11,243 nucleotides of DNA from positions 1-11,243 of the forward strand of contig JAPJMP010000075.1 of NCBI GenBank assembly GCA_026461645.1, read 5' to 3'. This stretch comes from Burkholderiales bacterium (GTDB taxonomy: Bacteria; Pseudomonadota; Gammaproteobacteria; Burkholderiales; UBA11063). Under the pieces are notes generated by a model, which saw nothing but the letters and a program-made list of their open reading frames with translations, searched no databases and had not been told where the DNA came from. Positions 52 through 11,092 of the stretch are shown one piece after another (the first letter of the stretch is position 1; the number at the start of each line of letters is the position of its first letter). The position numbers and the translations under genes were made by a program.

Positions 52-73
52 TTAATAAAATTAAGGAATGGTT

Positions 74-1255
74 ATGAAATATGCATGGCGTTGGTTTGGA
101 CCTACTGACCCAGTTACTATTAGTGATGTTCGACAAGTTGGAGCTACAGATATAGTTTCAGCATTACATCACATAGCTAATGGTGAAATTTGGTCAATCG
201 AGGAAATACAAAAAAGACAACAACAAATTAGTTGGGATAGTTTAAATAATGAACCAAGTAATTTAGTTTGGTCGGTGGTAGAGAGTGTGCCAGTACATGA
301 AGATCTAAAGAAGCGCAGCGGAAATTTTAAACAATATATTGAAAACTATAAACAAATACTTAGAAATTTAGCCACATGTGGCATTAAAGTTGTTATTTAT
401 AACTTTATGCCGGTTATTGATTGGACTAGAACTGATTTATCGTTTCGTTTAAATAATGGTGTACGAGCACTAAGATTTGATTTTTATGAATTTGCTGCTT
501 TTGATTTATTTATTTTGCAAAGGCATAATGCACAACAAGATTATACTAATAGTCAGTATGAGCAAGCTAAACTTGTATTTGATAAGATGCAAGACCAAGA
601 TAAGCATAGATTAACTCGAAATATAATTGCTGGTTTACCTGGAGCTGAAGAAAGTTTCACTATAGAAGAATTTAGAGCGGCACTAAATCAATATAAAAAT
701 ATTGATGCTAATGTGTTGCGGCAAAATTTGTTTTTATTTTTGCAAGAAGTGATTCCAGTAGCTGCATCATGCGGTATTAAATTAGCGATTCATCCAGATG
801 ATCCGCCACGTCCAATGTTTGGCCTACCACGGATACTTAGTAATGAAAATGACATTGCTTTATTAACTGAAGAAATTAAATCACAACATTGTTGTCTAAA
901 TATTTGTGTTGGTTCACTAGGTGCAAGTGCTGAGAATGATTTAGAGCATTTTGTGCGTAAATGGGGTGATAGAATTCCTTTTGTTCATTTACGAAGTGTA
1001 AAATTAGAGCCAGATGGAAGTTTTTATGAAGATCAACATATTGCTGGAAGTACTAATTTGGCTAAAATAGTTAAAGCAATTTTTGATGTAGAACAACAAT
1101 TTAATAGTGAGATCATTATTCGCCCTGACCATGGGCATCAAATGCTCGACGATTTAAATAAAAAAACTAATCCTGGTTATTCTTGTATAGGAAGAATGAA
1201 GGGAATTGCTGAATTAAAAGGAATGGAATTAGCAATTAAAACTTTTAATTTATAA
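74..1255 (+). CDS. uxuA: Mannonate dehydratase UxuA
   Basis: Cytoplasmic enzyme that dehydrates D-mannonate to 2-keto-3-deoxygluconate (KDG). The 393-residue product matches the usual UxuA length and aligns end to end from memory with the E. coli protein: WRWFGP near the N-terminus, LHHIANGEIWSIEEI (about 31-45), WSVVESVPVHED (66-77), YNFMPVIDWTRTDL (109-122), HPDDPPRP (240-247), HLRS (305-308) and RPDHGHQMLDD (350-360). His240, Cys278, His305 and Asp352 have the spacing expected of the family's Mn2+ ligands. I chose the ATG at 74 rather than the in-frame ATG at 68: AAGGA (63-67) abuts the ATG at 68 but sits 6 nt before that at 74, and MKYAWRW is the family N-terminus. It is first in a two-gene unit with the SDR reductase (25-nt gap), which makes its substrate. 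Very sure of the family and function. Confidence 0.97.
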   Translation: MKYAWRWFGPTDPVTISDVRQVGATDIVSALHHIANGEIWSIEEIQKRQQQISWDSLNNEPSNLVWSVVESVPVHEDLKKRSGNFKQYIENYKQILRNLATCGIKVVIYNFMPVIDWTRTDLSFRLNNGVRALRFDFYEFAAFDLFILQRHNAQQDYTNSQYEQAKLVFDKMQDQDKHRLTRNIIAGLPGAEESFTIEEFRAALNQYKNIDANVLRQNLFLFLQEVIPVAASCGIKLAIHPDDPPRPMFGLPRILSNENDIALLTEEIKSQHCCLNICVGSLGASAENDLEHFVRKWGDRIPFVHLRSVKLEPDGSFYEDQHIAGSTNLAKIVKAIFDVEQQFNSEIIIRPDHGHQMLDDLNKKTNPGYSCIGRMKGIAELKGMELAIKTFNL

Positions 1256-1280
1256 AATATCTGCTAAAGGAGATGATCAA

Positions 1281-2102
1281 ATGGTGAATAAAGTTGCTGT
1301 AGTAACAGGTGGTAGTGGTGTTTTAGGACGCAAGTTTTCTTTTGCTCTTGCAGCTAATGGTTATAGTGTAGCAATTATTGGTCGTGATCAAAATAAAGCA
1401 CAGCTTATTGTTGATGAAATTATTAAACAAGGGAATACCGCTCTAGCAATATCTGCAGACGTAACAAATAAAGATAGTTTGGAAATTGCAGCGCAAATAA
1501 TTGAGCAAAAACTAGGTAGTTGTGACTTGTTGCTTAACGGTGCTGGGGGTAACCATCCACAAGGCATTAGTGAAGCAGAGTATTACTTGCCAAATAATGC
1601 AAATAATATGACAAATTTCTTTGATTTAAAACTTGAAGGAATTGATTTTGTGTTTCGCTTAAACCTAATGGGTACAATTTTACCATCTCAGGTTTTTGGC
1701 AAACAAATGGTCAATAAAAATAGTGCTAGTATAATTAATATTTCATCAATGAGTGCTATATTACCATTAACAAAGGTGGTGGCATATAGTGCGGCAAAAG
1801 CAGCTATTGATAACTTTACTAAATGGTTAGCAGTACATTTTTGTAAAACCAATATTAGAGTTAATGCTATTGCTCCAGGATTCTTTTTAACTGAACAAAA
1901 TAGAGCATTATTGGTAAATGCTGATGGTAGCTTTACTCCACGAGCGCAAAAAATTATTAATCGTACTCCAATGGGTAGACTAGGAGAGGCAGAAGAATTA
2001 ATTGGCACCTTATTATGGTTAGCAAATGAAAAGGCTTCTGGCTTTGTAAATGGTGCTGTAATTCCAGTCGACGGTGGGTTTGCCGCTTATTCAGGCGTTT
2101 AG
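1281..2102 (+). CDS. uxuB: SDR-family D-mannonate oxidoreductase (fructuronate reductase, Bacillus-type UxuB)
   Basis: Predicted to reduce D-fructuronate to D-mannonate with NAD(P)H in the cytoplasm. The 273-residue protein is a classical short-chain dehydrogenase: nucleotide-binding TGGSGVLG (9-16), NGAGGNHP (86-93), catalytic Ser in NISSMS (153-158), YSAAK (Tyr169, Lys173), and a C-terminal PVDGGF (262-267). The NGAGGNHP motif followed by a longer-than-usual segment (about 94-125) before the catalytic Ser is what I associate with the SDR mannonate oxidoreductases such as B. subtilis YjmF/UxuB, which also follows uxuA. It is unrelated to the long-chain UxuB of E. coli. A strong Shine-Dalgarno AAAGGAG (1266-1272) lies 8 nt before the ATG. 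Its stop codon overlaps that of kdgK on the other strand. The family is certain; substrate is assigned from motif and neighbours, and another sugar-acid dehydrogenase is possible. Confidence 0.87.
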   Translation: MVNKVAVVTGGSGVLGRKFSFALAANGYSVAIIGRDQNKAQLIVDEIIKQGNTALAISADVTNKDSLEIAAQIIEQKLGSCDLLLNGAGGNHPQGISEAEYYLPNNANNMTNFFDLKLEGIDFVFRLNLMGTILPSQVFGKQMVNKNSASIINISSMSAILPLTKVVAYSAAKAAIDNFTKWLAVHFCKTNIRVNAIAPGFFLTEQNRALLVNADGSFTPRAQKIINRTPMGRLGEAEELIGTLLWLANEKASGFVNGAVIPVDGGFAAYSGV

Positions 2103-3049
2103 CGCGAGCGTTGAATACTTTTACCCATAAAAGCATCTAAATTACGCCAAGTGGGATAACCAGCATTATCGCCTTTGACTAAAACAGCCATAGCACCAAT
2201 AGCGTTAGCTAATTTAGCACATTCATCTAAAGGTTTATCATCTAACATGCCGGCAATGAATCCGGCAGCAAAACCATCACCAGCCCCTGCTGTATCTATA
2301 ATATGTTCTACTTTGTAGGCACTTATTTTGACTATAGTATCACCATTACTGTATGCACAACCTTGATCGCCGAGTTTAATTACAACTATTTTACAACCAT
2401 AGCTATGAAATTTAGCACAAATTTCTTCAAGTGAATTTAGACCTAATATTAATTGCGCTTCATCAAGACCAGGAAAAATTATATCGCAACACTTAGCAAA
2501 TTCAATCATAGTTTGTTTGGCTAAATTAAGGTCAGGCCATAATTTAAATCTCAAATTCGGGTCAAAACTAATAGTTAAATTATGTGCCTTAGCATAATTT
2601 ATTGCAGTAAAACATGCACTTTTTGCTTCTTCAGTTAAGGCAGGAGTTATGCCAGTTAGATGCAAAAATTTTGCCCTAGCAATATAGTTTTCATTAATAT
2701 GTTGTGGAGTTAAAGTAGTAAATGCAGAATTTTTACGATAATAATAAACATTTGGATTATTGCTTTGATACTGTTCTTTAAATAATATAGCAGTGGAGTT
2801 ATTACTATCAAAAGTAACTTCGCTTACATCAACTCCTTCCCCTTTGAGATTAAATAGAATATAGTTACCAAATTCGTCATCACCAAGTCTTGATATCCAG
2901 CCAGTTTTAAAACCTAGTCTGGCAAGAGCAATAGCGACATTAGCTTCGGCCCCACCCATTGATTTATTAAAGTTATTAATAAAACGTAAAGGCCCTTTTT
3001 CATTTGTACTAAAAACAACTAAAGCTTCACCTAAAGTAACTAAGTCCAT
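2099..3049 (-). CDS. kdgK: 2-keto-3-deoxygluconate kinase (PfkB/ribokinase family)
   Basis: Phosphorylates KDG, the UxuA product, to KDPG using ATP, feeding the lower Entner-Doudoroff pathway. The 316-residue product is a full-length PfkB-family kinase: GEAL (7-10), the first signature GGAEANVAIALARLG (32-46), SRLGDDEFG (53-61), YYYRKNSA (102-109, the substrate-binding region typical of KdgK), FDPNLR (162-167), KLGDQG (225-230) and the anion-hole and catalytic motif DTAGAGDGF with Asp258 as the likely base. The start ATG is preceded by AAGGAA with 7-nt spacing. It is transcribed alone, convergent with uxuB and divergent from uxaC. Another sugar kinase of the family is conceivable, but the substrate motifs and the pathway context both point to KDG. 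Confidence 0.93.
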   Translation of the reverse strand: MDLVTLGEALVVFSTNEKGPLRFINNFNKSMGGAEANVAIALARLGFKTGWISRLGDDEFGNYILFNLKGEGVDVSEVTFDSNNSTAILFKEQYQSNNPNVYYYRKNSAFTTLTPQHINENYIARAKFLHLTGITPALTEEAKSACFTAINYAKAHNLTISFDPNLRFKLWPDLNLAKQTMIEFAKCCDIIFPGLDEAQLILGLNSLEEICAKFHSYGCKIVVIKLGDQGCAYSNGDTIVKISAYKVEHIIDTAGAGDGFAAGFIAGMLDDKPLDECAKLANAIGAMAVLVKGDNAGYPTWRNLDAFMGKSIQRSR

Positions 3050-3078
3050 AGCATAATTCCTTAGTAAATATAATATTA

Positions 3079-3107
3079 ATTATACCAAAATAATAAATAC
3101 TTTGTAA
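3079..3107 (-). promoter_or_regulatory. Candidate kdgK promoter
   Basis: On the minus strand a perfect TATAAT (3079-3084) stands 17 bp from a weak -35, TTACAA (3102-3107). The distance to the kdgK start codon at 3049 is about 30 bp, a normal short leader. The -35 overlaps two inverted repeats described separately, so binding there would affect kdgK transcription. Confidence 0.5.
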
Positions 3108-3140
3108 TCTATTTCTAATAGATTGCGATAGTTTTACAAA
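3101..3140. promoter_or_regulatory. Nested inverted repeats between kdgK and uxaC, candidate operator
   Basis: Inner repeat: AATCTATT (3106-3113) and AATAGATT (3117-3124), perfect 8-bp arms with a 3-nt centre. Outer repeat: TTTGTAA (3101-3107) and TTACAAA (3134-3140), perfect 7-bp arms. The left arms overlap the predicted kdgK -35. The location between divergent genes of one pathway suits a shared regulator site. Base composition makes chance AT repeats common, so this is a candidate only. Confidence 0.4.
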
Positions 3141-3155
3141 ATTTTATTTGCGATA
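3123..3155 (+). repeat. Direct repeat TTGCGATA, 25-bp period
   Basis: The octamer TTGCGATA occurs at 3123-3130 and 3148-3155, start-to-start 25 bp, in the kdgK/uxaC intergenic region. A close variant TTGTGATA is at 7-14 upstream of uxuA, and TTGCGGTA is on the minus strand at 4767-4774 upstream of the permease. It could be a binding element for a regulator of the pathway. Confidence 0.35.
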
Positions 3156-3215
3156 ATAGCACTACTAACTTCTTGTGCTTTAGTTATAAATTGCACATAT
3201 AATTTTTGAATGTTA

Positions 3216-3224
3216 TGCTATAAT
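3216..3224 (+). promoter_or_regulatory. Candidate uxaC promoter, extended -10
   Basis: TGCTATAAT (3216-3224) is a perfect extended -10 (TGnTATAAT), about 46 bp before the uxaC start codon at 3271. No convincing -35 lies at 16-18 bp. A second possible -10, TATAAT at 3198-3203, has TTGTGC (3173-3178) 19 bp upstream. I favour the downstream one. Confidence 0.5.
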
Positions 3225-3270
3225 TTCATTTTATCACAGATGCTATTTTGTTATTATGGAGCGAATTAAT

Positions 3271-4668
3271 ATGCGTGACTTTTTAAATGAAAATTTTCTT
3301 TTATATAATCCTACGGCAATTAATTTGTATCACACTTATGCCAAACATTTACCAATTATAGACTACCATTGCCATATTAAACAAAATGAAATTTATGAGA
3401 ATAAACAATTTAATAATATAACTGAAATTTGGTTACAGGAAGATCATTATAAATGGCGCTTAATGCGTTGTTGCGGAGTGCCAGAACATTTAATTACTGG
3501 TAATGCAAGTAGCTATGATAAATTTTTAGCTTGGGCTGGAGTTGTTCCTAAATTAATAGGTAATCCACTTCATCATTGGACTCATCTTGAGTTGCAACGC
3601 TATTTTGATATTTATGATTTACTTAATTTAGATACTGCTCCTAAAATATGGGATATAACTCAAAAAAAATTAACTAATGGTAAATTCAAAGTGCAAGACA
3701 TTCTTTTAAAATCGAATATTGAATTTATTTGTACCACCGATGATCCAATTGATGATTTAAATATTCATCAAAAATTAAAAGATAGTTGCACCATAGCTAA
3801 AATTATGCCGGCATGGCGACCTGATAAAGCGATAAAAATAGCTCATCCTAATTTTAATCATTGGCGCTTAAAATTATCCCAATTAGTAGATTTTGCGGTA
3901 GACAGCTATGCTAAGCTGTTACAAGCCTTAATAATTCGTATGGATTTTTTTCAGGCAAATGGATGTACAATTTCAGATCATGCTTTAGATTATGTGCCGT
4001 ATTTAAGAGCAAGTAATGAGCAATTAGAATTAATCTTTGCTAAAGCTTCGCATAATCAGCCAATTACCTTAAATGAAGAACAACAATATCGAACCGAATT
4101 ATTATTGTTTTTAGGAGAGCAATATCACAAACGTGATTGGGTAATGCAATTACATTTAAATGCTGCTCGCGACAATAATACCTATAAATTTAACCAATTA
4201 GGATCAGATACTGGATTTGACACTATTAACGACAATAATATTCAGTACCAATTGTCTAATTTACTTAATGCTCTAGAATTAAAACAAAGTTTACCTAAAA
4301 CGATTTTATATAGTTTAAATCCGCGTGATAATATTGTTATTTCAGCCTTAATTAATTGTTTTCAAGGTGAGAATATTAGCGGTAAAATGCAATTTGGTGC
4401 TGCTTGGTGGTTTAATGATCACAAGGATGGAATAGAAACACAATTACAAGATTTGGCAAATGTAGGTGTACTATCTAATTTTATTGGCATGTTAACTGAT
4501 TCGCGGAGTTTTCTGTCATATACACGCCATGAATATTTTAGACGAATTTTATGTAATTTTATTGGCACATTAGTTGAAAATGGTGAATATCCAAATGATC
4601 ATAAAATGTTAGCACAAATAGTAGAAAATATATGTTACTATAATGCAAAAGCATATTTTAAGATTTAG
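3271..4668 (+). CDS. uxaC: Glucuronate (uronate) isomerase UxaC
   Basis: Interconverts D-glucuronate and D-fructuronate (and, in the family, galacturonate and tagaturonate) in the cytoplasm. The 465-residue product matches the family length and motifs: MRDFLNENFLL at the N-terminus, DYHCH (31-35) with the metal-binding histidines of the amidohydrolase-like barrel, HYKWRLMR (59-66), GNPLHHWTHLEL (97-108), ICTTDDP (153-159), WRPDK (182-186), QLHLNAARDNN (293-303), FGAAWWFND (375-383) and DSRSFLSYTRHEYFRRILCN (410-429). An in-frame ATG at 3256 exists, but that ATG is itself part of the likely ribosome-binding sequence ATGGAG, which lies 9 nt before the ATG at 3271, and the family N-terminus starts at 3271. 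It acts on the myo-inositol oxygenase product. No uxaA or uxaB is present here, so glucuronate rather than galacturonate is the relevant substrate. Confidence 0.97.
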   Translation: MRDFLNENFLLYNPTAINLYHTYAKHLPIIDYHCHIKQNEIYENKQFNNITEIWLQEDHYKWRLMRCCGVPEHLITGNASSYDKFLAWAGVVPKLIGNPLHHWTHLELQRYFDIYDLLNLDTAPKIWDITQKKLTNGKFKVQDILLKSNIEFICTTDDPIDDLNIHQKLKDSCTIAKIMPAWRPDKAIKIAHPNFNHWRLKLSQLVDFAVDSYAKLLQALIIRMDFFQANGCTISDHALDYVPYLRASNEQLELIFAKASHNQPITLNEEQQYRTELLLFLGEQYHKRDWVMQLHLNAARDNNTYKFNQLGSDTGFDTINDNNIQYQLSNLLNALELKQSLPKTILYSLNPRDNIVISALINCFQGENISGKMQFGAAWWFNDHKDGIETQLQDLANVGVLSNFIGMLTDSRSFLSYTRHEYFRRILCNFIGTLVENGEYPNDHKMLAQIVENICYYNAKAYFKI

Positions 4669-4705
4669 ACACATTTGGGCTTAAATATATCTTGAAAGTT
4701 AATTA

Positions 4706-4735
4706 TTAGACTATTTTAATTTTTTGGTGTATAAT
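4706..4735 (+). promoter_or_regulatory. Candidate promoter of the permease-miox-galM operon
   Basis: TATAAT at 4730-4735 with TTAGAC (4706-4711) 18 bp upstream. If used, it gives a leader of about 160 nt before the permease start at 4903, unusually long compared with the other units here. I see no clear terminator between uxaC and this site, so read-through from uxaC is also possible. Confidence 0.4.
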
Positions 4736-4818
4736 TAATTTTTCTAAATAAAATATTGCAATTATTTACCGCAATTGAAGGTTAAATTCGGTATGGTAAT
4801 GTTAAATAAATTTTAGTA

Positions 4819-4855
4819 ACAATCAAATATCGTATAAACAAATATAGATGATTGT
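4819..4855. repeat. Inverted repeat in the permease leader
   Basis: ACAATCA (4819-4825) and TGATTGT (4849-4855) are perfect 7-bp arms separated by 23 nt of AT-rich sequence. It lies in the proposed leader, 48 nt before the permease start. It could be an operator pair or a weak RNA stem; it lacks the U-run of a terminator. Confidence 0.3.
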
Positions 4856-4902
4856 AGGATTTAAATAAAGTATTAAATTGCTTAATCTTTGTGGGTGTAA
4901 AA

Positions 4903-6279
4903 ATGGCTAATAACAAATCATATTTATCAATAATAATTGGAGTTGCTGCTACTTGTGGACTATTATTTGGTTTTGATACTTCGATAATTGCCGGTGCTTC
5001 ACCATTTATTCAAGCACAATTTCATGCTACAAATTTTGAATTGGAAATGGTGGTAAGTAATTGTGTATTAGGTGCATTATTTGGCTCATTAAGCAGTGGC
5101 TATATAACTGATATTTTAGGCCGACGTAAGGTGCTAATAATTACAGGATTTATTTTTATTGTTGGAACTATACTTGCAGCTACAGCCGAAAGTATTTTTA
5201 CGTTAAGTGTTGGGCGATTTGTATTGGGCTTTGGTGTTGGAGTAGGATCATTTGCTGGACCATTATTTATAGCAGAAGTAGCCCCAGCAAAAACGCGTGG
5301 TAATTTAGTATTGTGGAATGGTGCTTTTATTACTGGTGGTCAAGTAATTGCTTATATTATTAGCTCTCTTCTTACTGAAAATCAAAGTTGGCGTTTAATG
5401 ATTCTAACAGGGATACTGCCAGCAATTATTTTAACTATTGGCATGTTGTGCATGCCAGAGTCGCCAAAATGGTTGGCTCTTAAGGGATTTGAAGATAAGG
5501 CGTTAGATATTTTAACTAAAATTCGCGGAAACCTTAATGATGCTAATACAGAATTATTAAATATTAAAAACACACTCTTGCATAATAATAAAATCAAATT
5601 AAAAGAAATATTTTCTAAAACATTAAGGCCAGTATTAATTATTGGACTTGTTTTAGGAGTGGGGCAGCAATTTATGGGGATTAATACAGTAATGTATTAT
5701 GGTCCACATATTATGAAAAGTATTGGCTTTAGTAATTCCTTAACACAAATGTTTGGAACTCTTGGCTTAGGTACAACCAACTTTGTGTTTACAATTGTTA
5801 CTTTATTATTTATTGACCGAATTGGTCGAAGAAAATTTTTACTTATGGGGTCTATGATTGCCGCTATAAGCTTATTTATGATGATATGGCTACTAACCAA
5901 TATTAGTGATAGTCAAGTTAGTGCCTATTTGGCTTTTGTATGTCTTATTACTTATATTATTGGTTATTGTATCAGTGTGGGTTCATTGTTTTGGTTGATG
6001 GCGGCTGAGATATTTCCCTTAAATGCTCGTGGTAGATGCATGAGTTTTGTGGTAGCAATGCAATGGGGCGCAAATTTTATAGTTACATCTACGTTTCTAA
6101 CTATTTTAAGCACTTTGGGAATGAAAGTGGCTTTTGGTATTTATGGTGTAGTTGCTATATTAATATTTTTATTTACTTTAGTAAAAATCCCTGAAACTAG
6201 AGGAGTTACGCTTGAGGTTATCGAATCTAATTTAATTAAAGGTGTCCCAAGTAGATATTTAGGACAAAAAGAAATTTAA
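4903..6279 (+). CDS. Sugar-porter MFS permease, probable myo-inositol:H+ symporter
   Basis: Inner-membrane 12-helix carrier of the sugar porter (GLUT/XylE/IolT-like) family, 458 residues. Diagnostic motifs are visible in order: FGFDTSIIAGA in helix 1 (22-32), DILGRRK (70-76) in the loop 2-3, GRFVLGFGVG (105-114), PESPKWL (185-191) after helix 6, GQQFMGINTVMYYGP (254-268) in helix 7, DRIGRRKF (305-312) in loop 8-9, NARGRC (374-379), and the C-terminal PETRG (430-434). I prefer the ATG at 4903 over the in-frame GTG at 4891, because MANNKSYL leads directly into helix 1 and GTGGGTG provides a weak ribosome site upstream. It is followed after 14 nt by the myo-inositol oxygenase gene, so inositol is the best guess for the substrate. 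The family also transports xylose, glucose and galactose, and I cannot fix the substrate from sequence alone. Confidence 0.9.
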   Translation: MANNKSYLSIIIGVAATCGLLFGFDTSIIAGASPFIQAQFHATNFELEMVVSNCVLGALFGSLSSGYITDILGRRKVLIITGFIFIVGTILAATAESIFTLSVGRFVLGFGVGVGSFAGPLFIAEVAPAKTRGNLVLWNGAFITGGQVIAYIISSLLTENQSWRLMILTGILPAIILTIGMLCMPESPKWLALKGFEDKALDILTKIRGNLNDANTELLNIKNTLLHNNKIKLKEIFSKTLRPVLIIGLVLGVGQQFMGINTVMYYGPHIMKSIGFSNSLTQMFGTLGLGTTNFVFTIVTLLFIDRIGRRKFLLMGSMIAAISLFMMIWLLTNISDSQVSAYLAFVCLITYIIGYCISVGSLFWLMAAEIFPLNARGRCMSFVVAMQWGANFIVTSTFLTILSTLGMKVAFGIYGVVAILIFLFTLVKIPETRGVTLEVIESNLIKGVPSRYLGQKEI

Positions 6280-6293
6280 ATGGAGAATTAATC

Positions 6294-7262
6294 ATGGAAC
6301 AACAAAATAATTTTGGGAATCTTCGTAATTATGTTAATTCCGCACGCAAAGAAATAGTTGAAAAAACTTACCAAAACATGCAAATAAACCAATCTTTAGC
6401 TTTTGTTAAAGCCAAGAAAGATAAATATTACCAATTAAACCATGGCAAAATGAATGTGTTTGAAGTATTTAAGCTGCTGGAGACAATGGTTGATGATAGT
6501 GATCCAGATAATGATTTACCGCAAGTATTTCATGCCTATCAAACAGCGGAATCCATCTTTCAATATGCGATGGAAAATGCAACACAATTAAAAAACAATT
6601 TAAGTATAAGAGATTTATTTCGTGACCATGAGTGGCAAGCAGTGCCACCAAAGTGGCAAACAATTTATAGTCAAAATACAATAGCCACCTTATATGACCA
6701 TATTAAAGATTGGTCATGGTTACCAGTAGTTGGTTTTGTTCATGATTTAGGTAAAGTAATGGCATTGGAACATTTTGGCAAATTGCCGCAGTGGTGTGTT
6801 GTGGGTGATACATTTCCTGTAGCTGCCCCATTTAGCAAATCAAATGTATTTTACGGTAAAGGGTTCTATAAAGATTCAGAAGATTTTAATAAATATAATG
6901 TAGAAAATAATGAATATTATGGTGTTTATCATAAGCATTGTGGTTTTGATAATGTTGATATGAGCTGGGGACATGATGAATATATTTATGAAGTTATGCG
7001 TAAAGGTAGCACTATTGTAAAAGAAGGTTTATATTTATTGCGATTCCACTCTTTTTATCCATGGCATACACCGCAAAATGGAAGTTTAGGCTATATTGAA
7101 TTAGCTTCTGAATATGACTGGAAAATGTTACCTTTAGTTAAAGCTTTTCAAAAAGGTGATCTTTATTCAAAATCGACAGTTATTCCTACTATGGAGCAAA
7201 TTGAACAAAAGTATAAGCCATTATTAGCAAAGTATATTCCTAGTCCTAGTATTGATTGGTAA
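6294..7262 (+). CDS. miox: Myo-inositol oxygenase (MIOX)
   Basis: Di-iron oxygenase that cleaves myo-inositol with O2 to D-glucuronate in the cytoplasm. The 322-residue protein carries every motif I know from animal MIOX: ESDPD-like DDSDPDNDLPQVFHAYQTAE (67-86) with ligand His80, VHDLGKVMAL (149-158) with His150, Asp151 and substrate-contacting Lys154, VVGDTFPV (169-176), CGFDNVDMSWGHDEY (216-230) with His227, RFHSFYPWHTP (250-260) with His252, and YDWKMLP (274-280) with Asp275. All six iron ligands are therefore present. It even ends in Trp, like the mammalian enzyme. It is about 35-40 residues longer than animal MIOX because of an insertion at about 91-138. GGAG lies 8 nt before the ATG. 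Its position between a sugar permease and galM, next to glucuronate catabolism, fits the role. The family call is essentially certain. Confidence 0.97.
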   Translation: MEQQNNFGNLRNYVNSARKEIVEKTYQNMQINQSLAFVKAKKDKYYQLNHGKMNVFEVFKLLETMVDDSDPDNDLPQVFHAYQTAESIFQYAMENATQLKNNLSIRDLFRDHEWQAVPPKWQTIYSQNTIATLYDHIKDWSWLPVVGFVHDLGKVMALEHFGKLPQWCVVGDTFPVAAPFSKSNVFYGKGFYKDSEDFNKYNVENNEYYGVYHKHCGFDNVDMSWGHDEYIYEVMRKGSTIVKEGLYLLRFHSFYPWHTPQNGSLGYIELASEYDWKMLPLVKAFQKGDLYSKSTVIPTMEQIEQKYKPLLAKYIPSPSIDW

Positions 7263-7267
7263 TTTGA

Positions 7268-8305
7268 ATGAAGATAATTAAAAAATTCGTTACTAATTAT
7301 GCTAATCAAGATGTGTATAAATATTCTTTAATTGCTGACAATAAGTTTCAAGTAGACGTGCTTAATTATGGAGCAATTATTTGCGGAGTTTATACTCCAG
7401 ATAAAAACAATACTTGGGAAAACGTTATTTTAGCGTACGATGATTTTAATGATTATATTACTAATATTGGTTATTTTGGTGCTGTAGTTGGTCGGCATGC
7501 TGGAAGAATTGGTAGTGGTCGCTTTAGTATCGATGGAATTGAATATCAGGTAGCTACCAATCGTAATGGCAATAATTTACATGGCGGCAACATTGGTTTA
7601 GATAAAAGAATTTGGCAAGTTAGTGAAATTACTAATGGAATTCAATTAAAATATTTAAGCCCGCATCTAGAAGAAGGTTTTCCGGGTAATATTGAGTTTA
7701 CAGTGACTTATTTAATCGATGAAGATAATACTTTAACTATTACTTATGATGGAATGCCAGATCAAAAAACTTTAATTAATTTAACTAATCATACTTCGTT
7801 TAATTTATCTGGTGGCAAAATTGCGGCAGCAGAGCACCGCTTATATTTGAACGCAAATAAATTTTGTGCAGTTGATAATACTGGTTTGGTCACTTCAGAA
7901 TTTGTCGCAGTTAAAAATACTCCATTTGATTTTACTCAGGCTAAGAAAATTAGCACTGATATTGCCTCAGATGATTCACAATTAAAAATTGTTGGTGGTG
8001 GCTATGATCATCCGTTTATATTAAATAAGAGTCAGGATCCGCAAATTGTTTTAGCAGACGACCTAAGCGGTAGAACTGTACAAATTACGACTACAGAAAA
8101 TGCGGTTGTATTTTATAGCGGTAATTTTTATACCCCTGGTGGTAAAATTAATCATAAATACTATGCAAGTAAACATTTTGGCGTGTGTTTAGAAACACAG
8201 AATATACCCAATGCTATTAATTTAAATAATTATGCGGATAAAAGTTTATTTACAGCTACTACACCGTACCATGCTGAAACTAAATGGCGTTTTGCTTTAG
8301 GTTGA
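7268..8305 (+). CDS. galM: Aldose 1-epimerase (galactose mutarotase family)
   Basis: Cytoplasmic mutarotase of the GalM family, 345 residues, a normal full length. Family motifs seen: LNYGAII (32-38), VVGRHAGRIGSGRF (73-86), NNLHGG (102-107) with His105, TNHTSFNL (173-180) with catalytic acid His175, GYDHPF (245-250) with Asp247, and CLETQ (307-311) with catalytic base Glu309. The usual GRxANRI motif reads GRHAGRI here, with Gly in place of Asn. It starts 5 nt after the MIOX stop with only a weak ribosome site, which suggests translational coupling and a shared operon with the permease and MIOX. In general the family interconverts alpha and beta anomers of glucose or galactose. In this context it could act on D-glucuronate, which needs the right anomer or open chain for UxaC; that is inference. 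Confidence 0.94.
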   Translation: MKIIKKFVTNYANQDVYKYSLIADNKFQVDVLNYGAIICGVYTPDKNNTWENVILAYDDFNDYITNIGYFGAVVGRHAGRIGSGRFSIDGIEYQVATNRNGNNLHGGNIGLDKRIWQVSEITNGIQLKYLSPHLEEGFPGNIEFTVTYLIDEDNTLTITYDGMPDQKTLINLTNHTSFNLSGGKIAAAEHRLYLNANKFCAVDNTGLVTSEFVAVKNTPFDFTQAKKISTDIASDDSQLKIVGGGYDHPFILNKSQDPQIVLADDLSGRTVQITTTENAVVFYSGNFYTPGGKINHKYYASKHFGVCLETQNIPNAINLNNYADKSLFTATTPYHAETKWRFALG

Positions 8306-8361: not shown

Positions 8362-8880
8362 TTAAAGTTTTTTCTTCTCAAAAATTCTAAAAATAATTAA
8401 ATATACAATTGATAATATAATAGTTGAAATTATTAAAGAAGTTTTGTTGGTCACGCCAATATTACCAAAATTAAATATATTGGTAAATATAGCTATATGA
8501 GGAATTATTTTTGTGCCAAGAATACACCCTAGAGTAATACCAATCAAGCCAAAAACGCTGTCAATTTTACCTGTTGCCGCAGCTCCGGTACAGGTGCCAG
8601 GACAATAACCCAACATGCCCCATCCTACGCCAAAAATTAAGCCACCAATAATTGAATTAAAAGCATTAAATACTAGATGGTTGATGCCAATATAGCCTGA
8701 GACATATAAAATGGTTAAACAAATCGAGCCAACTAACTGAGCTGACATAAAATATTTAAATAGCATCATATTCTTTAGTTGCATAGTAGCAACTTGATTG
8801 TCATAACTTAACATTTTAGCTTTAAAGAGAATGATGCCAAAAACAAATCCTACGCCTAAACCAATAAATACTACATTCAT
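8362..8880 (-). CDS. YeeE/YedE family half-transporter (DUF6691 type, GYCPGT motif)
   Basis: Small integral membrane protein of 172 residues, about four to five hydrophobic segments (roughly 1-20, 45-62, 68-90, 106-128, 147-166). The motif GGLIFGVGWGMLGYCPGT (79-96), with Cys93 and a second Cys97, is characteristic of the YeeE/YedE sulfur-transport domain, in which conserved cysteines line the path for thiosulfate or related sulfur species in TsuA. It is the second gene of a pair: its ATG is 6 nt beyond the stop of the upstream gene and its ribosome site (AGAGG, 8891-8895) lies just upstream of that stop. The two short proteins together correspond to the two halves of a full-length YeeE, so they probably form a heterodimer. 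The C-terminal tail is basic (EKKKL). Substrate is inferred from the family only. Confidence 0.9.
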   Translation of the reverse strand: MNVVFIGLGVGFVFGIILFKAKMLSYDNQVATMQLKNMMLFKYFMSAQLVGSICLTILYVSGYIGINHLVFNAFNSIIGGLIFGVGWGMLGYCPGTCTGAAATGKIDSVFGLIGITLGCILGTKIIPHIAIFTNIFNFGNIGVTNKTSLIISTIILSIVYLIIFRIFEKKKL

Positions 8881-8886
8881 ATTTTG

Positions 8887-9408
8887 TTAACCTCTATAAA
8901 TTATGCGATTTATTATAACGGTACCAACAAAGAAGAAAATAAAGGTAACAAATCCCGTAACATCAAAACGTGATATTGAAGATATACCGTAATAAATACT
9001 GCATCCTGATGCCACCATGCCACCAAATCCCATTATTAAACCACCAATAAAGGCCATAAAAATTCTTAATCCTACTTTATCACCAAATCGAGCTTTAAAT
9101 AATTCAGGCACCTCTGAGGTAAATTTAAATTTACCCGACATAACAGCAGCAACAAAAGCTCCCAATACCATCCCTAAAATCAAAAATACTTGAAAATTAA
9201 ATAATGATGTTGAAGCAATTTCTTTAATATAGTGTAAATCAATACCTATATTTTTAACCGAAATCATTGTAGATGATGCAGAGACAGAATCGCCAATAGA
9301 TTTAAAAGCACTTAACGGGGCTAAATCTTTATCCCATAGAGCTACCGACACGGTCAAGATCAGACCAGTTAAACCACCAAATATGTACGGTTGTTTAGTA
9401 TTTTTCAT
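8887..9408 (-). CDS. YeeE/YedE family half-transporter (GCSxxxG motif)
   Basis: Integral membrane protein of 173 residues and first gene of the YeeE/YedE pair. It has an N-terminal hydrophobic segment (about 8-25), a polar stretch (26-65) probably outside the membrane, then hydrophobic segments at about 70-92, 114-134 and 150-170. The motif GGLIMGFGGMVASGCSIYYG (122-141) with Cys136 is the family's signature for a sulfur-relay cysteine. Paired short YeeE/YedE genes are widespread in proteobacteria, often beside sulfide- or persulfide-responsive regulators; no such regulator, rhodanese or persulfide dioxygenase is visible in this window. The ribosome site is weak (GGGA about 8 nt before the ATG). 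Import of thiosulfate or another reduced sulfur compound is the family-based expectation. Confidence 0.9.
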   Translation of the reverse strand: MKNTKQPYIFGGLTGLILTVSVALWDKDLAPLSAFKSIGDSVSASSTMISVKNIGIDLHYIKEIASTSLFNFQVFLILGMVLGAFVAAVMSGKFKFTSEVPELFKARFGDKVGLRIFMAFIGGLIMGFGGMVASGCSIYYGISSISRFDVTGFVTFIFFFVGTVIINRIIYRG

Positions 9409-9546: not shown

Positions 9547-11061
9547 CTACAAATTTTGTTGTTGAATTTTCTGTGCCCAAATAATTGGTGCGGTTTGATG
9601 AATTGATTCACCTTTAGTATCAACTGCAACAGTTACTGGCATATCTAACACATCAAATTCATATATAGCTTCCATTCCTAAATCAGCAAAAGCAACCACT
9701 TTAGCCGCTTTAATCGCTTTTGAAATTAAATAAGCGGCACCACCAACAGCAATTAAATATACGGCTTTATTATCTTTAATGGCATCAATGGCAATTTGTC
9801 CCCGCTCAGATTTGCCTATCATACCAATAATTCCAGTCTGTTCTAGCATTTGGCGCGTGAATTTATCCATACGTGTTGCAGTGGTTGGACCAGCTGGACC
9901 AACAATTTCATTACGTACTGGATCAACTGGTCCAACATAATAAATGAATTTACCGCTAAAATCAACGGGTAATTTTTCATTATTGTTTAGCATATCAATA
10001 ATTCTTTTATGAGCAGCATCCCGACCTGTAAGTATTTTACCTGTTAGTAATAAAGTTTCACCTGTTTTCCATTGCGCAATTTGTTCTTTAGTGATGCTGT
10101 TTAAATTAACTGTTTTAGATTGTACTTGTGCCGCTGTATCTAATATTGGGTAGTCTTTAAGTTCAGGTGCAATAAGTTGTGCTGGGCCTGAACCATCTAA
10201 AGTAAAATGAATATGTCGCGTAGCGGCACAATTAGGAATTAAAGCAATTGGTTTACTGGCGGCATGAGTTGGGTAATCTAAGATTTTGATATCTAAAACT
10301 GTGGTTAAGCCACCCAGACCTTGAGCGCCAATACCTAAGGCATTTACTTTGTTATATAATTCAATTCTTAGTTCTTCAATTTTATTTTTAGGTCCATCAG
10401 TTATTAACTGTTGCATGTTAATTGGTTGCATTAATGATTTTTTCGCTAATAGCATTGCCTTTTCTGCAGTTCCACCAATTCCGATACCAAGGATTCCAGG
10501 AGGGCACCAACCAGCTCCCATAGTAGGTACAGTTTTTAATATCCATTCAATAATAGAATCGCTAGGGTTTAACATCGCAAATTTAGCCTTATTTTCTGAG
10601 CCGCCACCTTTAGCCGCTATTTCAACCTCAATATTAGAGCCAGGAACCATTTCAATATGAACCACTGCTGGCGCATTGGTTTTGGTGTTTTTTCGTGTAA
10701 AAGCCGGATCATCAAGAATCGAGGCCCTAAGTTTATTATCAGGAAAATTATAGGCAAGTTCAACTCCGATATCTACCATTTCTTGAATTGATTGATTCAC
10801 CTTATCAAATCCAACATCCATTCCAATGGTAACAAAAACACAGACAATTCCAGTATCTTGACATATAGGGCGTTTGCCTTCAGCCGCCATTTTCGAATTC
10901 AATAAAATTTGACCAATAGCATTCTTAGCAGCAATCGATTGCTCCTTGTTATAAGCCTCAGTCATGGCGATAATAAAATCGCGCGGATGATAGTAAGATA
11001 TAAATTGTAAACTATCAGCTATTGATTGAATAAAATCCTGTTGTTTAATTATTACTGTCAT
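9547..11061 (-). CDS. fumA: Fumarate hydratase class I, [4Fe-4S] type
   Basis: Cytoplasmic TCA-cycle enzyme that interconverts fumarate and (S)-malate using an oxygen-sensitive [4Fe-4S] cluster. The 504-residue single-chain protein contains both the alpha and beta domains. The three cluster cysteines are Cys67 in CQDTG, Cys186 in GWCPPG and Cys278 in NCAATRH, with spacings close to those of E. coli FumA. Other motifs include GGGSENKA (residues 152-159), LTGRDAAHKR in the beta domain, and GPAGPTTATRMD. An upstream in-frame TTG at 11073 would add four residues, but the ATG at 11061 has an excellent GGAG (GGAGAAGG, 11064-11071) 6 nt away, and the TTG overlaps the upstream edge of that site, so I take 11061. 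It appears monocistronic and unrelated to the inositol genes. The symbol fumA is by class; tartrate dehydratase-like activity cannot be excluded. Confidence 0.96.
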   Translation of the reverse strand: MTVIIKQQDFIQSIADSLQFISYYHPRDFIIAMTEAYNKEQSIAAKNAIGQILLNSKMAAEGKRPICQDTGIVCVFVTIGMDVGFDKVNQSIQEMVDIGVELAYNFPDNKLRASILDDPAFTRKNTKTNAPAVVHIEMVPGSNIEVEIAAKGGGSENKAKFAMLNPSDSIIEWILKTVPTMGAGWCPPGILGIGIGGTAEKAMLLAKKSLMQPINMQQLITDGPKNKIEELRIELYNKVNALGIGAQGLGGLTTVLDIKILDYPTHAASKPIALIPNCAATRHIHFTLDGSGPAQLIAPELKDYPILDTAAQVQSKTVNLNSITKEQIAQWKTGETLLLTGKILTGRDAAHKRIIDMLNNNEKLPVDFSGKFIYYVGPVDPVRNEIVGPAGPTTATRMDKFTRQMLEQTGIIGMIGKSERGQIAIDAIKDNKAVYLIAVGGAAYLISKAIKAAKVVAFADLGMEAIYEFDVLDMPVTVAVDTKGESIHQTAPIIWAQKIQQQNL

Positions 11062-11092
11062 TGCCTTCTCCAAACGAATCGTGATAAGTAGT

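Follow-up and report, generated by a model that had tools for sequence, protein, structure and literature searches.

We analysed contig JAPJMP010000075.1 of a Burkholderiales bacterium (assembly GCA_026461645.1, here G000; 1.52 Mb in 242 contigs, 88.75% complete), whose 11,243 nucleotides are referred to as the window and which carries seven genes for a putative degradation of myo-inositol. The genes, called as open reading frames (ORFs) and scored for their families against the curated cut-offs of Pfam and NCBIfam, encode a mannonate dehydratase (UxuA), an SDR-family oxidoreductase, a PfkB-family kinase, a glucuronate isomerase (UxaC), a sugar-porter (SP) permease of the MFS type, a myo-inositol oxygenase (MIOX) and a GalM-like protein (Table 1). 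All seven, between 68 and 8305, are intact ORFs with Pfam scores far over the cut-offs, which bears out the genes named in an initial annotation of the locus, although uxuA starts at 68 rather than 74 and the kinase gene lies on the minus strand. The gap between uxuA and the SDR gene is 25 bases, MIOX starts 14 bases past the permease gene and the GalM-like gene follows 5 bases past MIOX; the layout suggests the transcription units uxuA-SDR, kdgK (minus strand), uxaC and SP-MIOX-galM. The contig begins 67 bases ahead of uxuA, and genes further upstream are outside view.

Table 1. Features of the window, with their positions, strands and supporting evidence.
Feature	Position	Strand	Evidence
UxuA, D-mannonate dehydratase (mannonate to 2-keto-3-deoxygluconate, KDG)	68..1255	+	PF03786 408 bits; TIGR00695 equivalog 512 vs 199.6 bits
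SDR-family D-mannonate oxidoreductase (fructuronate to mannonate)	1281..2102	+	Pfam 145 bits; NCBIfam PRK08277 413 vs 281 bits
PfkB-family kinase, probable KDG kinase (KdgK)	2099..3049	-	PF00294 220 bits
Divergent intergenic region kdgK/uxaC, likely promoters	3050..3255	.	gene layout; motif none established
UxaC, glucuronate isomerase (glucuronate to fructuronate)	3256..4668	+	PF02614 676 bits; PRK02925 equivalog 597 vs 387 bits
SP MFS permease, putative importer of myo-inositol	4891..6279	+	Pfam 354 bits; TIGR00879 344 vs 237.8 bits
MIOX, myo-inositol oxygenase, long form	6294..7262	+	PF05153 240.4 vs 25 bits cut-off
GalM-like aldose 1-epimerase, role uncertain	7268..8305	+	PF01263 244 bits
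Two half-size sulphur-transport-family (PF04143) membrane proteins, tandem, adjoining cluster	8362-9408	-	
Class I type fumarase	9547-11073	-	

We consider it very probable that these genes form an aerobic myo-inositol catabolic cluster of the Francisella type in a betaproteobacterium of the Aquella group. The sugar porter would import myo-inositol, MIOX would open its ring with O2 to give D-glucuronate, UxaC would convert this to D-fructuronate, the SDR would reduce D-fructuronate to D-mannonate, UxuA would dehydrate D-mannonate to KDG, the PfkB kinase would turn KDG into 2-keto-3-deoxy-6-phosphogluconate (KDPG) and a KDPG aldolase encoded on another contig would split KDPG into pyruvate and glyceraldehyde-3-phosphate. 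The same course from inositol to KDPG had been read from the locus in the initial annotation, and it is upheld by the protein families, the fold of MIOX, the co-occurrence of the genes in related genomes and a similar gene run in Francisella. The sequence establishes which enzymes are present and their families, the fold and ligands of MIOX, the linkage and co-occurrence of the genes and the loss of SP-MIOX in Aquella oligotrophica (below). The best solved relatives of UxuA and UxaC are a mannonate dehydratase (4eac) and a glucuronate isomerase (3iac), respectively, while that of the SDR (4wuv) bears a different dehydrogenase name, 2-hydroxycyclohexanecarboxyl-CoA dehydrogenase. The substrates of the permease and the kinase, the flux and the regulation are inferred. 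The genes for the full route to pyruvate and glyceraldehyde-3-phosphate are present, as had been proposed, although that for the KDPG aldolase lies outside the window (G000:C31:2931-3503; PF01081, E 9.2e-66), where it adjoins a clpB-like gene and, past a small ORF, a lipB-like gene (both named by eye). Together with the kinase, if that acts on KDG, it completes the lower route in G000, which also encodes a haem-copper oxidase, as an O2-using route requires.

The iron ligands of mouse MIOX, which we take to be H98, H123, D124, H194, H220 and D253, align with H80, H150, D151, H227, H252 and D289 of the window protein, so that the six ligands noticed initially can be mapped, and they are invariant in 24 of 24 aligned MIOX homologues. 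The positions that presumably contact inositol in the mouse enzyme (R29, D85, K127, G141, D142, S221 and K257) are likewise retained in the window protein and invariant in 24/24 homologues. Its solved relatives are mouse and human MIOX, and it has the MIOX fold, with a close match to a MIOX substrate complex; an NCBIfam scan of the protein gave zero matches. The window protein is a long form with an extra stretch of about 45 residues between the ligands H80 and H150, which places 70 residues between the H and HD motifs, compared with 24 residues in 63 of 73 loci with a short-form MIOX (the other 10 could not be measured by motif). This insert between iron ligands might suggest that the homologue works on another cyclic polyol or is inactive, and within the literature searched on bacterial MIOX we are not aware that an enzyme of the long, insert-bearing bacterial form has been purified and assayed; the conservation of all ligands and presumed contact residues and the close fold match nevertheless make such a departure from inositol oxygenation highly improbable. 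The insert-bearing form is also found in eukaryote transcripts (P0046, P0087 and P0115, by source) and in many metagenomic proteins. In a quick tree of 83 rows, hand-picked from 120 proteins and 84 loci, the window MIOX falls with those of Francisella (locus L025) and of a Gammaproteobacteria metagenome-assembled genome (MAG; locus L024) in one clade of 43 rows (SH-aLRT 100). One homologue, P0089 (448 residues), is a fusion of MIOX to a second Pfam domain, PF05995.

Francisella has the same proposed route and the same SP-MIOX pair, and there the cluster of Francisella sp. W12-1067, or Allofrancisella heilbronnii, reportedly starts with MIOX (Chen et al. 2020). The operon F7308_1388-1396 of Francisella TX07-7308 is described as encoding RhiT, alpha-glucosidase, UxuB, UxuA, KdgK, KdgA, UxaC, XylT and inositol oxygenase, with similar operons in Francisella Fx1 and 3523, and passages of that 2012 report propose a path from inositol via glucuronate to the Entner-Doudoroff pathway and state that bacterial homologues of the Francisella MIOX had not then been found outside Francisella (PMC3479022). 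Strain W12-1067 is described as having an inositol gene cluster and using inositol, and Fx1 as able to grow on it; the account that glucose is not routed via Entner-Doudoroff in W12-1067 has no bearing on KDPG derived from inositol (PMC7564102, PMC12701580).

Compared with the proteins of L025 and L024, respectively, the window proteins are 56 and 59% identical for MIOX, 58 and 57% for the SP and 55 and 55% for UxuA, whereas UxaC reaches only 28 and 27% and the kinase 24 and 23%. The mannonate oxidoreductase is an SDR in the window but a mannitol-dehydrogenase-family protein (PF01232/PF08125) in L025, where the sole SDR match is 31% identical and lies more than 8 kb beyond MIOX. The window further differs from Francisella in having the KDPG aldolase outside the cluster, kdgK on the other strand and a GalM-like gene after MIOX. 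The cluster shares its proposed route and SP-MIOX with Francisella and differs in UxaC, the kinase and the oxidoreductase, so that it represents a pathway already known from Francisella, now in another lineage and built in part from other components; the set of SP-MIOX, UxaC and UxuA lies in one genome, inside 68-7262 of the window. A literature search on bacterial MIOX and on inositol in Francisella, with subscription journals mostly beyond its coverage, brought up no paper that we recognised as describing the route outside Francisella.

Two other known pathways share parts or purpose with the cluster. The hexuronate pathway of E. coli and B. subtilis has UxaC, UxuA, a mannonate oxidoreductase, KDG kinase and KDPG aldolase in common with it but takes imported glucuronate, whereas the window route would be fed by MIOX instead or besides. 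The Iol pathway (IolG, IolE, IolD, IolB, IolC and IolJ) likewise leads from inositol to central metabolites, but its first step uses NAD, whereas that of MIOX uses O2. The KduI/IolB family (PF04962), the one Iol enzyme family searched for, had 0 matches in G000 (at its 88.75% completeness) and in the 15 of 22 genus relatives covered.

To place the cluster in its group, we compared G000 with 22 genomes of genus-level relatives; G021, where a piece of MIOX lies at the end of a contig, was counted as lacking the gene. Genomes with a full MIOX had UxuA in 5/5 and UxaC in 4/5 cases, and those without it in 2/18 (one of them incomplete, where a contig ends) and 1/18, respectively; with G021 moved to the other side, the association gave p values of 0.0034 for UxuA and 0.0078 for UxaC. 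The KDPG aldolase, unlike the MIOX-tracking UxuA and UxaC, is general in the group (16/22 relatives). The four relatives with a full MIOX encode an SDR of 69-71% identity no further than about 8 kb from uxuA, and a kinase homologue (58-62% identical) lies directly 3' of uxaC in G002, G014, G016 and G022, followed in three of these by a LacI-family gene (by Pfam for that of G022). The SP gene stands directly 5' of MIOX in G019, G022, one contig of G002 (C92), L024 and L025, and one gene away from it in another contig of G002 (C50). In G019 (81% complete) UxaC was not found, and a place of GalM in a conserved cassette was rejected on zero matches at E 1e-8 in 84 compared loci. Both copies of MIOX, SP, UxuA and SDR in G002 (C50 and C92) belong to a MAG that is 87% complete with 6% contamination, so they may reflect duplication or two mixed strains.

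Within the group, G016, a single contig taken as Aquella oligotrophica P08 (a presumed identification), appears to have lost SP-MIOX by deletion. G019 and G016 are collinear in two blocks, one of 6,410 bases with 91.7% DNA identity, which stops shortly after an aroB-like gene, and one of 1,250 bases with 91.4% identity around uxuA, which starts within the MIOX gene of G019. The stretch separating them measures about 2.6 kb in G019, where it holds SP-MIOX, and 69 bases in G016. The last 35 bases of the G019 MIOX gene are matched in G016 ahead of uxuA (L127, region 8663-8806), and 0/1000 shuffled-region trials gave a match as good. This remnant speaks for loss from A. oligotrophica, with the MIOX tail kept before uxuA, and against our earlier reading of a gain at the aroB/uxuA site of G019. 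The two genomes thus offer a natural pair with and without SP-MIOX at one chromosomal site. The GEN III substrate panel contains myo-inositol. For the tap-water isolate A. oligotrophica, the description states that D-glucuronic acid and glucuronamide are used as sole carbon sources, lists inositol among API negatives and gives all other GEN III substrates as unused (PMC6612550).

That A. oligotrophica uses glucuronate without MIOX could also mean that the cluster serves mainly external glucuronate or glucuronides, with MIOX as a side entry or supplying glucuronate to other processes, and with a permease that carries a hexose or a uronate in place of inositol. Consistent with this, the nearest solved relatives of the permease, GlcP and XylE, carry glucose and xylose; the interval between uxuA and the SDR gene in G002:C92, G014, G019 and G022 holds genes for a large hydrolase and another MFS transporter (assigned by Pfam to GH31 and MFS_2 in the case of G002); a GalM-like gene lies 3' of MIOX; and in an Alteromonadaceae MAG (L021 4796-17229) a long-form MIOX is found among large genes, near a GH115-family gene, with zero SP, UxaC or UxuA matches. 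Relatives of the SP that are 60-61% identical occur in G021 and G015, and the G015 protein is found without MIOX, for which reason we do not take an exclusive SP-MIOX linkage as proof of a dedicated inositol carrier. However, the adjacency of SP and MIOX is kept in the Aquella group, in Francisella and in another gammaproteobacterial genome, zero glycoside hydrolases were found among the ten scanned ORFs of the window (the contig starting 67 bases before uxuA), and Francisella strains with an inositol cluster are described as using inositol. We therefore regard a function primarily in external glucuronate use as unlikely and favour inositol as the substrate of the pathway.

Several observations weigh against the inositol assignment. 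G014 carries MIOX without a close SP, and the 60% identical SP relative of G015 (a 100% complete genome with zero MIOX matches) lies between two glycosyltransferase genes. UxaC is missing from the finds in G019, as noted above, and the KDPG aldolase was not found in G002 (87% complete). In G016, uxaC (L128 8408-9801) and the KDPG aldolase gene (G016:C1:1666882-1667468) each run across two reading frames. This is hard to square with the reported growth on glucuronate and may be sequencing error. The negative API result for inositol in A. oligotrophica is weak, since glucose is given as negative in API despite being positive in GEN III (PMC6612550). The kinase, named KdgK in the initial annotation, has the KDG/2-keto-3-deoxygalactonate kinase equivalog NF040938 as its best NCBIfam model, at 235.2 vs 400 bits and thus below the curated cut-off, so that its substrate rests on context; its best four solved relatives are a PfkB protein, followed by proteins named fructokinase and KDG kinase. 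By its context, it probably acts like KdgK.

No shared operator was found in the window. The candidate, a LacI-type palindrome TGTTANCGNTAACA built from sites 5' of uxuA and SP in G022 and of uxuA in G014, had exact matches in G022 (2), G014 (2), G002 (2) and G019 (1) and 0 in G016 and G000, but at up to one mismatch its reversed control was equally common or commoner in all six genomes (9 vs 12 in G022, 18 vs 18 in G002). The window has zero sites with fewer than two mismatches, and 14 with up to three vs 7.7 expected, a count reached by 7/200 shuffles. As TGTTANCGNTAACA was derived from the sites it would explain, we rejected it and do not rely on it.

Beyond these clusters, MIOX is more widespread than its initial description as the animal and plant route to glucuronate, and the treatment of inositol oxygenase as the animal route in passages of PMC6353982, would imply. 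Genome contigs scanned with one MIOX sequence yielded no relatives, and an alignment-based scan found matches in Acidobacteria, Planctomycetes, Verrucomicrobia, Bacteroidetes and others; according to a review, the MIOX of Flavobacterium johnsoniae is active in yeast (PMC12076931). The short-form enzymes of these phyla are 34-38% identical to the window MIOX, and their 73 loci (3.0 to 20.8 kb each) had zero UxaC or SP matches at E 1e-8 and a UxuA match in 1. That locus (L061 5530-8298, in a Bacteroidetes genome) has UxuA beside MIOX, and an SDR match adjoins UxuA. The suggested host- or protist-associated life of the organism found no support in our tests, and the only identified cultured member of the group came from tap water. 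With this cluster the MIOX-based inositol route reaches beyond Francisellaceae into a betaproteobacterial group, and a prediction of inositol degraders that relies solely on Iol genes would overlook such bacteria. One report describes isolates that lack Iol clusters yet grow on inositol, suspects another route and cites the Francisella work (PMC12838507).

The SP-MIOX pair occurs with two glucuronate pathways of different make-up, in Francisellaceae and in the Aquella group, and would be a separable entry of two genes, without which the glucuronate pathway can also stand. In a more speculative reading, which we hold to be less likely than not, the pair is a possibly transferable module that lets bacteria living on glucuronate use inositol as well, and A. 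oligotrophica is a natural loss mutant. As to the neighbouring genes, the GalM-like protein could speed anomer exchange of glucuronate; its best solved relative is an aldose 1-epimerase, and it passes PRK11055 narrowly at 245 vs 240 bits but misses the galM equivalog TIGR02636 (276 vs 398). Genes for an aldehyde dehydrogenase and a GMC oxidoreductase lie 3' of MIOX in G002 (L026 6550-12055; both by Pfam) and G014 (L023 7932-12215), betB-betA-like by eye, and a calcineurin-type phosphoesterase gene stands between SP and MIOX in G002. Such choline-oxidation-like and phosphoesterase neighbours would fit the stripping of head groups from eukaryotic phospholipids.

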